DNA from: Sneathiella aquimaris
GTDB lineage: Bacteria > Pseudomonadota > Alphaproteobacteria > Sneathiellales > Sneathiellaceae
Reading direction: 5' to 3'
Assembly (NCBI RefSeq): GCF_026409565.1
Contig: NZ_CP112881.1
Location: forward strand, 1,163,501-1,227,500
Length of the DNA: 64,000 nt
Positions 44,122 through 51,071 of the stretch are shown piece by piece. The number at the start of each line of letters is the position of its first letter. Within the stretch, counting starts at the first letter, position 1. The position numbers were made by a program, and so were the translations under genes. The notes under the pieces are model-generated. The model saw only the letters and a program-made list of their open reading frames with translations, was not told where the DNA came from and did no database searches.

Positions 44122-44196
44122 TGGGGTGTAGCCAAGCGGTAAGGCACCGGTTTTTGGTATCGGCATGCGCAGGTTCGAATCCTGCCACCCCAGCCA
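44122..44196 (+). tRNA. tRNA-Gln (anticodon TTG)
   Basis: Complete cloverleaf with encoded CCA. The acceptor stem is TGGGGTG / CACCCCA, the D-arm GCC...GGC, the anticodon stem CCGGT / ATCGG with loop TTTTGGT and anticodon TTG at 44154-44156, and the T-arm GCAGG-TTCGAAT-CCTGC. The last 17 nt lie within the left copy of the 39-bp direct repeat that bounds the downstream island, so the gene is intact and has served as an integration site. Confidence 0.96.
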
Positions 44197-44218
44197 CTCA
44201 CTTTTCCCTTGAAAATTT
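44180..44218. repeat. Left attachment-site copy (attL/attR) of the tRNA-Gln island
   Basis: A 39-bp sequence beginning TCCTGCCACCCCAGCCACTC and ending CCTTGAAAATTT; it matches 47178-47216 at 38 of 39 positions. It starts in the T-arm and runs 22 bp past the tRNA 3' end. Confidence 0.85.
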
Positions 44219-44361
44219 GACCTTCAGAACGACACGGATAACTCCTTGCTTCAATTTTAAACTGCAAGGTGTCTATAAATCTAGGGGCATCTCATTGAGT
44301 TGTATGTTGAGTTGTTCATGGTGTGAGAGGCTAAGGCAGTTCCCCAGCCCCTCAGTCTGGT

Positions 44362-44685
44362 TTAGGAAATGACCGTCAAGCCTGCTGTCGTCTCTTTCCC
44401 ATTACCTTCACGGCCTGCTCCACCACCTGTCATGCGGTCGGTAGCTTCAACTTCATAATCCAGAATGATATGTGTCTTGCCTACCCAGAATTCCTTGGTG
44501 TGATAGCAGATGTCATCCCTGTCAAAGCATGGCCTTAGACCAGAGAACTCAACATCAAACCAAGTCCTGCCTCGAATGTGACCCCCTCGCTCTACATAGC
44601 AGTCCACTGGGAAGAAACGGCGCAAACGCTTTAAGCTACTCATCATGTACTTGTTATCCTTTTGTCCATGGTTGTTAATCGACAA
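44362..44685 (-). CDS. Hypothetical protein inside the tRNA-Gln island
   Basis: A 107-residue frame, alternatively starting at residue 14 or 15. It is basic at the N-terminus (SSLKRLRRFFPVDCYVERGGH) with strand-like segments after it (RTWFDVEFSGL, WVGKTHIILDYEVEA). No recognised domain. It lies 206 bp downstream of the tcmP stop on the same strand. It may be a real island gene or a fragment; codon use gives no strong indication. Confidence 0.4.
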   Translation of the reverse strand: MSINNHGQKDNKYMMSSLKRLRRFFPVDCYVERGGHIRGRTWFDVEFSGLRPCFDRDDICYHTKEFWVGKTHIILDYEVEATDRMTGGGAGREGNGKETTAGLTVIS

Positions 44686-44890
44686 GAGGAATCATTTCAG
44701 AATAACAGTGGGTTAACAAGTAAAATTCAAACCCTCTAATATAGTTGACTGAGCGGAACTATTATTTGAGAGCCTGCCTCGCCTTGAGCGATACCAAGCT
44801 TGCACATAGTTGACGCTGAGGAACGAGTTTTAGGGGCTGCTGAAGGGGGCACTGTTGTTAACGTGCAACACCAGCAGTGCTGGCATTATA

Positions 44891-46138
44891 TTACTTTTTT
44901 GGAAAGCCTAACAGGGAGTAAAAGCTCGTTTGTCCTTTTAGCTTTAATGTGTCTGTAGGCTTGATGGTGTTGGGTTTTCTGCGCTCTCTACCCGCCTCAG
45001 TCAATACTTCAACATCAGGGTTTTCTATCATCATTTCATGAATGTCGTCACTGTGCGCCGCCGTTTCGCTGTAAGCGGTTTTGTAGAAGTCTTCAATGGA
45101 TAGCACGTCTCCTGCATCAGAAATCACTCTCGGAATGTCATCGTATAACTCTTCTTTTGAGGAATCCCGTGCAGACTGATTGAAAAGAAATAGCTGCCCT
45201 TCCTTTGAAGGATCGTATGATAACATCTTTAGTCCCGATCTTCCGAAGTGAGCCTGTGCATTTTCATTTTCGTATAGAACATTGTTATAAACCTGCCTTG
45301 CGCGATGAGCGTTAGCAAAGTGCATTAGCCAATATTGCCAGCCATGTGGGTTGTTAATAGAGAAGGGGCTGACATATGGTGCACAGGCTTTTAAGTATTC
45401 AAACACAAGCTGTTCAGTTTTTCCCAGCCAATCAGGTTTGCTAATTACTCCGTCGCTAGACTGTAGCAAATCCTGAATTTGTGCCTTCACATTATCCTCT
45501 AACGGAACTGCATTGTTTTCATTGGAGGGAGACAAATATGTCAGAAGGCTTTTAATCATAAATGTTAAAATGATTTCTGCTGACTTCCACGAAGTCATGA
45601 TGTCCCGTAGGATGGTTGTCTTAATCTGGGAATATCCGCACTGGTCCAAGTTGAACAGAACGTTACTGCACCGTGCAGCTGTCAAGCGTTGCTTGATTTC
45701 GGGGTAGACATCCTCAAACTTTGAATGAAAATACTCTACATGGATATTCAGGTTAGGGTTTTCAGCTACTATCCCAGCAAGGTAAGGCGCTACGTTTACT
45801 TTCAAATGCTGAATTGCTGTTGGATCTGCATCATTTAACATGAGCAGGCATTCAATGAATATTGGCTTCATACCCTTATCAGTTCTACTGAGATTTATCT
45901 CTTGAACGACTTCATTGAGAGTGTGAATGAAAATGAGAGGGGAACCAAACTCACCACATGAGTACTGACCTGCGCCTGAAAAGCCATCAACTATTGCTAG
46001 GCGAAATTTCTCCATTTGAGGGATTTTGCAACGTGTGATTAAGTATTGCCTAAAATACTCTTTCAGGATTTCATGCTTTTTCTTGGTGTGGTCTTCTAGT
46101 TTAGCGCCGTTATCCCAATCGTATTCTTTCTTAGCCAA
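44891..46138 (-). CDS. tcmP: Three-Cys-motif partner protein TcmP
   Basis: A 415-residue protein recognised as TcmP. The N-terminus YDWDNGAKLEDHTKKKHEIL is followed by LAIVDGFSGAGQYS (about 48-60), which looks like the D-x-F-x-G-x-G of a SAM-dependent methyltransferase motif I, then GSPLIFI; NVLFNLDQCGYSQI (about 165) matches the family's 'LDPxG' region. TcmP proteins occur with phage Gp37/Gp68 (DUF5131) proteins, exactly the gene 20 bp upstream here. Their biochemical function is not established; nucleic-acid modification or defence is an inference. The start is a TTG with AGG 8 bp upstream. Confidence 0.85.
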   Translation of the reverse strand: MAKKEYDWDNGAKLEDHTKKKHEILKEYFRQYLITRCKIPQMEKFRLAIVDGFSGAGQYSCGEFGSPLIFIHTLNEVVQEINLSRTDKGMKPIFIECLLMLNDADPTAIQHLKVNVAPYLAGIVAENPNLNIHVEYFHSKFEDVYPEIKQRLTAARCSNVLFNLDQCGYSQIKTTILRDIMTSWKSAEIILTFMIKSLLTYLSPSNENNAVPLEDNVKAQIQDLLQSSDGVISKPDWLGKTEQLVFEYLKACAPYVSPFSINNPHGWQYWLMHFANAHRARQVYNNVLYENENAQAHFGRSGLKMLSYDPSKEGQLFLFNQSARDSSKEELYDDIPRVISDAGDVLSIEDFYKTAYSETAAHSDDIHEMMIENPDVEVLTEAGRERRKPNTIKPTDTLKLKGQTSFYSLLGFPKK

Positions 46139-46158
46139 ATGTTACCTATCTGCATTTC

Positions 46159-46950
46159 TCAAAGGGTTAAATTTAGTTCGGGCATCTCGTCCCAAGTTCT
46201 ACCTCTATACTCGCGTCCATTAGCCTTTTTTGACCTTTTCTGATTATCTTTGCCCCACGTTCCCCACTGTTTGAAAAAGAAGGCCGTGCCAAATTGTGAA
46301 CATTGCTCATGGATTTCATCTATCCATTCTTCTTTTATGGGTCGTGCACTGCTGCCACTTTCGCCGCCAACGATTGCCCAATGTATATCCGATAGATTAA
46401 CACTGCCTACGGCACCAATTAGTGGTTCGAATGAAATAAATCTAATCGTTGCAGGTGTTTCGCGCAAGTAATCAATTCTCTCCTTGGTTTCGTGGTTCTC
46501 TACACTGGTTCCTAGCCAAACATTGGCAAGTGTCGGTAGAGCCTGCTCAGCGATTACCTCAGCCATCCTGTCTGGACGTTTCGTTAGGATTTGATAATTG
46601 TGGTGAGGTGTGTCCGCCATAACGTTCCATACAGAGCAGATAAACTCATCGTCCACATCTGGGTGAAACAGATCGCTCATTGAATTTACGAATATCTTTC
46701 TAGGCTTCTTCCATTTGTATGGTATCTGAAGGGAGGCATTGTCTTGTTTTATTTTGCCATTCCAGACAGTTCGTTTACCAGTCTTGCGGGTAAGGCCAGC
46801 ATATTTCTTGACACCCATTGCTTCCAGCCTTTTAGCCATTAGCATTGCATAACAATTAGTGCAGCCAGCACTTGCTAATGAGCACCCAGCAACCGGATTC
46901 CATGTGGCATCAGTCCACTCTATTTGAGATTCAGCCAAAACCAGCCCCAT
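46159..46950 (-). CDS. Phage Gp37/Gp68 family (DUF5131) three-Cys-motif protein
   Basis: A 263-residue protein of the Gp37/Gp68 family. It has the N-terminal IEWTDATWNPVAGC leading into the three-Cys motif Cys23-x6-Cys30-x2-Cys33-Tyr (GCSLASAGCTNCYA), followed by KRTVWNGKI, KKPRKIFVNSMSDLFHPDV and NYQILTKRPDRM, all family hallmarks. The cysteine spacing suggests a metal or iron-sulfur site like that of radical SAM-related photolyase-like enzymes, but this is not proven. The pair with TcmP, 20 bp downstream, forms a two-gene operon. The family is common on phages and genomic islands. Confidence 0.9.
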   Translation of the reverse strand: MGLVLAESQIEWTDATWNPVAGCSLASAGCTNCYAMLMAKRLEAMGVKKYAGLTRKTGKRTVWNGKIKQDNASLQIPYKWKKPRKIFVNSMSDLFHPDVDDEFICSVWNVMADTPHHNYQILTKRPDRMAEVIAEQALPTLANVWLGTSVENHETKERIDYLRETPATIRFISFEPLIGAVGSVNLSDIHWAIVGGESGSSARPIKEEWIDEIHEQCSQFGTAFFFKQWGTWGKDNQKRSKKANGREYRGRTWDEMPELNLTL

Positions 46951-47073
46951 ACAATTTTTAATTAGTCGTAAATTATCATGCTGTTAGAAAAAGCCAATAA
47001 CTCATTTGTTCACTTTTTGTTCTTATTGTCAAGAGTTCTATGGACAACTTATATGGCTAAACACCTTGCCTAC

Positions 47074-47095
47074 TGGTTACACGATGGTTACACAT
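47074..47095. repeat. Tandem 11-bp repeat at the right end of the island
   Basis: TGGTTACACGA followed directly by TGGTTACACAT, 83 bp inside the right attachment copy. Short tandem repeats near one end of an integrated element can be integrase or excisionase binding sites; the function here is an inference. Confidence 0.5.
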
Positions 47096-47177
47096 TTGGC
47101 TCCTGTCGGAGTTCGGAACGTGAACAGAAAGCGCAGTATTCTGGGGATCAACGCCTTGGGTGAAATTTGAGTGGGGT

Positions 47178-47216
47178 TCCTGCCACCCCAGCCACTCACT
47201 TTTTCCTTGAAAATTT
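47178..47216. repeat. Right attachment-site copy of the tRNA-Gln island
   Basis: 39 bp matching 44180-44218 with one mismatch (C to T near the middle of the T-tract). It duplicates the last 17 nt of the tRNA but not the rest of the gene. The two copies start 2998 bp apart. Confidence 0.85.
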
Positions 47217-47384: not shown

Positions 47385-48251
47385 TTATTGTTTTCGTGTT
47401 TTTCGTTCTCGCAGGACGATATAGCAGCCGCTTGCGACGACAATTGCGCTGCCCAGGAGTGTTAGCCCGTCCGGGCGTTCTGAGAAAACAATGGCTCCCA
47501 GTATCATCGCGAATACAAGGCGGGTATATCGAAACGGCGCGACGACCGAAATTTCCCCGGTTCTCATTGCGATTGTGAGGGCGTTATACGCCACGACCCC
47601 CGCGGCGATGGTTGCCGACAACTTGAACCAGACCGTCATTTCAGGCACAACAAATGAAATGCCGTGCCACACAGACAGGATAACGCCTGCCAGGAAGAGG
47701 ATAAAAAAGCCATAGATGCCCAATTGCCGGTTGGACATGGTCATTGGGGCGGCGCGTGTGGCTAGATCGCGCCCTGCAAAGCCGAGGGTTCCCAAAACGG
47801 CGAAAAGTGAGGCCGCTTCAAAGCCGCTCCATCCAGGACGGAGGATAAGAAGCACACCTGCAAATCCAAGGATAATACCTCCCCAGCGGTGCCAGCCAAC
47901 GCTTTCTTTAAAGAAGAAAATAGCACCTAACGCCACAAATAAAGGGGTTGCCTGTAATATGGCTGAGGCACTGGATAATGGGGTATATGCAATGGCGAGC
48001 GCAAAAAACAGGCGTCCCAATAACTCACATGCCGATCTGATGATAAGGGGTGGGGCCGTGATTTGCGGATGGATGATCTTTTCCCCCTTGGCCATGCTCA
48101 AAATCATGAAGACGAGCATACCGCCCAAGCCGAACAGGATTAGGGCTTGTCCCACCGGGATGGCTTGCACGGCCGATTTGAAGAACATATCCTCCAGGGC
48201 AAAGGCTGCCATTGCGAGAACCATAAAGAGTGTGCCGCGTATATTGTTCAT
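47385..48251 (-). CDS. EamA/DMT-family membrane transporter
   Basis: A 288-residue integral membrane protein with about ten hydrophobic helices in two homologous halves of five, the drug/metabolite transporter fold (first half about 1-140, second half 150-285, with YNALTIAMRTGEISVVAPFRYTRLVFAMILGAIVFSERP as the second-half signature). The substrate cannot be told. The N-terminal ALEDMFFKSAV segment is seen in a subgroup of alphaproteobacterial homologues. It lies 168 bp beyond the right island repeat, so it is likely native flank. Confidence 0.9.
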   Translation of the reverse strand: MNNIRGTLFMVLAMAAFALEDMFFKSAVQAIPVGQALILFGLGGMLVFMILSMAKGEKIIHPQITAPPLIIRSACELLGRLFFALAIAYTPLSSASAILQATPLFVALGAIFFFKESVGWHRWGGIILGFAGVLLILRPGWSGFEAASLFAVLGTLGFAGRDLATRAAPMTMSNRQLGIYGFFILFLAGVILSVWHGISFVVPEMTVWFKLSATIAAGVVAYNALTIAMRTGEISVVAPFRYTRLVFAMILGAIVFSERPDGLTLLGSAIVVASGCYIVLRERKTRKQ

Positions 48252-48444
48252 TTTCAGCGCTTTATTATTTGTGCAATCGGGAAGAGGTGTGTGATTGGGA
48301 TTTACTGGTCTTTATTAGTGGTCGCGACCTAGGTTGGCCAGCGAGAACAAAAAATGTTCGATGAATTTGTGATCCGTGTCAAATTCTGTTTGACTAAAAC
48401 CCGCTTCAATACAGAGTGTTCATCAATAAAGACGAAAGCCGTTT

Positions 48445-50628: not shown

Positions 50629-51071
50629 GCCTAAAGGCCAAGATCACGCCTGTTTCTGGGTAAAGACGGGAATATGATCCTCTAAGTCGTTTGATTCGTT
50701 TTTTTCGTGATAAAAAAGTGAATAAATTTTTTTTAATGTAATTTAATAATTACATAGACGTCATCTATATGACGTTAAGTAAAGAATAAAAATACTAAGA
50801 AATAAGCCTATGCTATTAGATTGCTTATTGTTTTCGTTTGACACCAGTAATTCTGTTTGTTCTTGATCTTTCCCGTCATTATGCAGATACTCAAAATCAG
50901 TTGATCAGTTCCAAGAATTGATCTGCTGGATATCCCCCCCGATATCCTAGTAGATGTAGTATCAAGTACCCTAGTATTAAGTACATAGTTGCGTATTCGT
51001 ACCGATTATTTAGTATCAAGTACCCTAGTACCCCTCTGATGTTGGAGAGATCTAATATCAGCCGATATGAT
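50629..51071. repeat. Repeat-rich intergenic region
   Basis: No credible gene in about 440 bp. The 20-bp sequence TAGTATCAAGTACCCTAGTA occurs twice exactly (50957-50976 and 51011-51030, 54 bp apart), and a partial, diverged copy lies at 50973-50990. Just before them is an inverted repeat GGATATC-CCCCCC-GATATCC (50928-50947). The region is A+T-rich, and the repeats contain many CTAG/TAGTA steps. The left part (50629-50900) shows no structure that I can name. Confidence 0.6.

Follow-up and report, generated by a model that had tools for sequence, protein, structure and literature searches.

The window analysed here is a stretch of 64,000 nt from Sneathiella aquimaris (contig NZ_CP112881.1 of assembly GCF_026409565.1, positions 1,163,501-1,227,500 of the forward strand), and all positions below follow its own numbering. 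Within it, a genomic island of about 3 kb begins at a tRNA-Gln(TTG) gene and is bounded by two att copies of 39 nt (table 1). The tRNA gene is intact and its displaced 3' fragment has the same orientation, as in tRNA-targeted integrative islands. TcmP and a DUF5131 protein, encoded head to tail, are the island's only clear gene products.

Table 1. Features of the island at tRNA-Gln(TTG), in window numbering.
Feature	Position	Strand	Evidence
tRNA-Gln(TTG), integration target	44122..44196	+	ARAGORN; Rfam RF00005, 63.6 bits (44122-44193)
Left att copy (17 nt of the tRNA 3' end and the 22 bp beyond it)	44180..44218	+	Repeat search and genome scans
Solo end of an insertion sequence (IS3 type)	44242..44294		44242-44288 matches IS ends in congener loci; outer end at 44294
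Unmatched 107-aa ORF, doubtful as a gene	44362..44685	-	ORF list, profile searches
TcmP, three-Cys-motif partner protein, 415 aa	44891..46138	-	TIGR04474, E 1.5e-56; PADLOC PDC-M30A, E 1.9e-23
DUF5131 protein with three-Cys motif, 263 aa	46159..46950	-	PF07505, E 1.4e-103; PADLOC PDC-M41B, PDC-M30B
Paired direct repeat TGGTTACAC, period 11; putative integrase arm-type sites	47074..47093	+	Repeat-pattern scans
Right att copy	47178..47216	+	Repeat search

The two att copies are identical at 38 of their 39 positions and have a spacing of 2998, exactly as an earlier, sequence-only reading of this DNA had described them. Across the genome (3.94 Mb, a single contig), a 34-nt inner att pattern searched with up to three mismatches and the 17-nt tRNA-Gln end searched with up to two were both confined to these two places, i.e. 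there is no third copy. The A+T richness also ascribed to the island holds as to direction but is only modest: GC content is 0.436 in the island, 0.482 in the window as a whole and 0.492 and 0.469 in the two 10-kb flanks. Elsewhere in the window, an A+T-rich intergenic stretch at 50954-51030 carries a 23-nt direct repeat whose copies are 96% identical at a spacing of 54.

The cargo may be a phage-defence module. Both adjacent genes match the models of PDC-M30, a PADLOC candidate defence system, with the DUF5131 protein scoring slightly higher with PDC-M41B; the defence role of the pair is that of a candidate. DUF5131 stands beside TcmP in 45 of 46 survey loci, the remaining one being located at a contig end. 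Among GTDB genomes, the seven nearest relatives of the island's TcmP share 54-60% protein identity with it; they come from gammaproteobacteria, judging by their names, and each has DUF5131 beside it (one cut by a contig end). Among the 24 genomes of the genus, TcmP occurs in that of S. aquimaris alone, so the pair was acquired by horizontal transfer. With TcmP in none of the 23 congeners, the fixed, syntenic presence in all close relatives that would have spoken against mobility is also not observed. In viral contigs, the att pattern was unmatched, and a search sensitive to close relatives only confirmed no relative of TcmP.

For the function of the two proteins, there are hints from structure models. 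The model of the DUF5131 protein (pLDDT 79.3) found no PDB match at E <=0.001, its best being spore photoproduct lyase (E 5.5e-3), and the weak model of TcmP (pLDDT 71.0) retrieved methyltransferases on top, with low TM-scores, followed by unrelated ATPases; neither protein has sequence relatives in the PDB. The NCBI TcmP model presumably meets RlmJ-like methyltransferases weakly, as we read its sub-threshold matches. The structure models only hint at a radical-SAM-like enzyme in DUF5131 and a methyltransferase-like partner in TcmP. Literature searches returned nothing on DUF5131, the phrase 'three-Cys-motif partner' occurs in three papers, and the word TcmP has unrelated meanings among the 20 of 213 matches listed. 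Variants of the pair occur in other genomes: at L064 8139-11227 and L068 10001-13549, and also in G570, G597 and G650, a single DUF5131 gene is flanked by, or stands next to, two genes of the TcmP type. In a Porticoccaceae MAG (L063, 4420-5040), the pair lies ~4 kb from a short integrase ORF, putatively of the integron type.

The tRNA-Gln gene is a repeatedly used integration site in the host genus. It was matched in 21 of the 23 congeners, and the sequence beyond it was readable in 20, all of which have ispE upstream of the tRNA; the window's next gene is present in 8 of them, and the genes of its right flank (EamA, AlkZ) in none within the stretch fetched. The sequence 3' of the tRNA differs widely among these congeners. 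The island is absent at tRNA-Gln in all 20, but none of them has the window's right-flank genes. In three (G003, G009 and G018), the same 17-nt core TCCTGCCACCCCAGCCA that stands at both ends of the island recurs downstream of the tRNA, at distances of 15,251, 9,530 and 24,409 bp, respectively, most other congeners having been read for at most 10 kb past tRNA-Gln, where longer elements may be missed. Since these larger elements are integrase-bearing and bounded by the identical core, integration at the tRNA 3' end is well supported. Beyond CCA, the two copies have 0, 0 and 4 bp in common in the three congener elements, as against 22 in the window.

Directly 3' of tRNA-Gln, G002 (on a short contig), G003, G009 and G018 encode a tyrosine integrase (PF00589) of ~600 aa. 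A DUF6538 domain is present in those of G002, G003 and G009, and the G018 integrase spans two overlapping frames and may therefore be broken. All four have paired short repeats 60-110 bp behind the tRNA end, and paired repeats are also found near the right end in G009, G018 and G003, those of G003 being imperfect and read from its alignment to G018. In G007, the left repeat pair is kept and the 3.4 kb up to the contig end hold no integrase. A second integrase family (Arm-DNA-bind_3) is represented at tRNA-Gln by a full gene only in G008; in G013, G015, G017 and, behind its element, G003, fragments are left (loci L081 1-3753 for G003, L054, L055 and L048). Decay of integrases is common at this site. 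G003 was considered as a plain empty-site case and rejected, because the sequence behind its right att itself forms the left end of another integrase element. This same sequence directly follows tRNA-Gln in G008, G015 and G013 (97, 94 and 91 of 120 nt alike), which means that the G003 element is absent there. The larger elements also carry genes of their own: nuclease genes lie toward the right end in G009 (Mrr_cat, L059) and G018 (PDDEXK_4, PADLOC PDC-S26, L041/L042), resolvase genes are found in the G009 element and, in G007, near the tRNA, and the larger element of G003 corresponds to loci L057/L081.

At its right end, the island has the pair TGGTTACACGATGGTTACAC at a distance of 104 bp from the core, and the corresponding pair of G009 lies 105 bp from its core. 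A pattern built from, and written after seeing, both the window and the G009 sequence, TGGTNNCACNNTGGTNNCAC, occurs in 7 of the 268 loci scanned; five of these overlap the right end of the island and two that of G009, and with one mismatch allowed, the number expected in the window is 0.01. When the 160-nt right ends of the island and G009 were aligned, a stretch that includes the repeat pattern, the score was 87.5, which none of 3000 random segments from the own genome and the genus reached (mean 43.7, maximum 83.0). By contrast, the island's right end does not match those of G003 (47.0) and G018 (44.0), which score 135.5 against each other. The alignments thus distinguish two kinds of right end, that of the island being of the G009 kind. 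The paired short repeats of the congener elements and of the island are putative arm-type integrase-binding sites.

The left end is different. The congener elements have an integrase gene and paired repeats right behind the tRNA, and the island lacks both. Five of the ~600-aa integrases gave no tblastn match to the whole island at E up to 1, the best matches of 14 integrases to the island ends were at chance level (E 0.044 on the left, 0.15 on the right), and the 14 PF00589 matches in the genome are all outside the island, which bears out the earlier statement that it contains no recombinase; a weak integrase match (E 5.8e-4) at 48057-48260 is located outside the island and overlaps the EamA gene. 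A paired 8-mer with a different sequence, TTGAGTTG, and a period of 12 is present at the island's left end, such pairs occurring in 310 of 7086 random 200-nt stretches. This left end does not match the four integrase-bearing left ends, and its nearest counterparts are G011, where there is no integrase, and G007, with 30 and 39 of 2000 random segments, respectively, scoring as high. The solo IS end separates the left core from the cargo, and related copies have the transposase domains HTH_Tnp_1 (in L033 and L029) and rve (in L033). The outer side of this IS end is intact and its inner side is cut, so the absent body would have lain toward the tRNA.

Taken together, the island is probably the remnant of a larger DUF6538-integrase element at tRNA-Gln that was deprived of its left end and integrase by deletion. 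Of the two alternatives offered by the sequence-only reading, this one is favoured and mobilization in trans less so, because the right end matches that of an integrase-bearing element and the left end is missing and bears an IS end. The larger element would have entered the tRNA-Gln 3' end by means of a DUF6538-type tyrosine integrase, like the elements of several congeners, and a later deletion would have taken the integrase gene together with the left end. IS-assisted deletion would be the simplest reading of the solo IS3-type end, and this role of the IS, like the order of events, is what we infer from the present arrangement. Both att cores, the right end with its paired repeats and the adjoining TcmP-DUF5131 cargo would be the survivors. 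The island at full length was found in none of the relatives examined, and an exact empty site, i.e. both flanks without the island, in none of the 20 readable ones. Such a deletion leaves the 22 bp common to both copies beyond the tRNA unexplained; this stretch could either have been carried by the attP of the element or have been spread by conversion or duplication. With only one base differing between the att copies, the decay need not be old.

Alternatively, the island could be a minimal cargo element that never had an integrase of its own and was moved in trans by a helper integrase recognizing the tRNA-Gln core. Intact att copies and arm-like repeats kept at the right end would suit such a unit, and integrase-less islands are acknowledged in print (Islander paper). 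The left arm region of the congener elements is, however, missing, the solo IS end occupies the island's left end, and among the 24 genomes of the genus there is no second copy of the unit as traced by TcmP. The genome does have other integrases, and one of its 14 PF00589 matches is of the DUF6538 type (L024; L070 = G000 3340000-3358000) and ~30% identical to the integrases at tRNA-Gln. This 589-aa candidate helper adjoins a tRNA-Thr(GGT), however, and the genome has no other copy of the tRNA-Gln core; the far end of the tRNA-Thr element was not found in 18 kb. On balance, we regard an origin of this kind as unlikely. A mixed form, in which a reduced tRNA-Gln element with att cores, right arm and two-gene defence cargo would still be moved in trans by co-resident DUF6538 integrases, by analogy with MITEs and CALINs, seems a little less likely again.

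Least probable is a route that was not site-specific, such as homologous recombination, by which a tRNA hotspot would have received the pair, the 39-bp repeat being the scar of an unrelated earlier element. Small defence genes often stand 3' of tRNAs without a repeat, and fewer than half of hotspots encode an integrase (Oliveira et al. 2017, PMC5635113). Against this reading, two att copies enclose the cargo, which directly adjoins a right end of the integrase-element type. The survey of TcmP pairs fits the published view that many hotspots lack integrases (PMC5635113): further pairs, some on short contigs, are found immediately 3' of tRNAs with no integrase nearby. In unbiased samples, which leave the own locus uncounted, include DNA for the best-scoring loci only and omit second copies per genome as well as genomes already counted, a tRNA was near the pair on its 3' side within ~1.5 kb in 7 of 62 loci and on its 5' side in one. 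The controls gave 4 of 21 on the 3' side and none on the 5' side for the small defence family Abi_2, and 0 of 30 for HsdS, i.e. 7/62 vs 4/51 overall (Fisher p 0.39). A recurrent integrase-less TcmP mini-element at tRNAs was therefore dropped as a candidate, adjacency not exceeding that of the controls and bounding repeats being absent: scanning seven other tRNA-near loci revealed no tRNA-end direct repeat around the pair. At L126, 16 nt of the tRNA end recur with one mismatch 3.17 kb away (score 13, three shuffles <=11), but this copy is located within the pair and was therefore not taken for an end. At L133 (G321, another family), the pair is located 129 bp behind a tRNA-Gln(TTG), without a repeat or a nearby integrase.

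Among known systems, the island resembles the Islander-type tRNA islands of tyrosine integrases in its intact tRNA, its displaced 3' fragment in the same orientation with the cargo in between, and a crossover region at the T-stem side of the tRNA end, but it has no integrase and measures just 3 kb. Candidates that lack an integrase are rejected by Islander itself, and a focused literature search for islands lacking integrases gave no match. With the DUF6538 tRNA-Gln elements of G002, G003, G009 and G018, the island has the tRNA and the 17-nt core in common and, with G009, a homologous right end, but it is without integrase, left repeats and the resolvase gene of G009. It also shares with phage satellites and hitchers (PICMI, tycheposons, CALIN) the small size and the presence of cargo without full mobility functions, but no packaging, replication or satellite gene is found among its ORFs.

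Overall, our data show how the arm sites that survive in a tRNA island without an integrase can reveal its parent element, so that what had been an either-or guess becomes a testable statement. They also indicate that adjacency to tRNAs is a general feature of small defence genes and calls for comparison with a control family. Should mobilization in trans be true, units too small for island finders that require an integrase could spread defence cargo.
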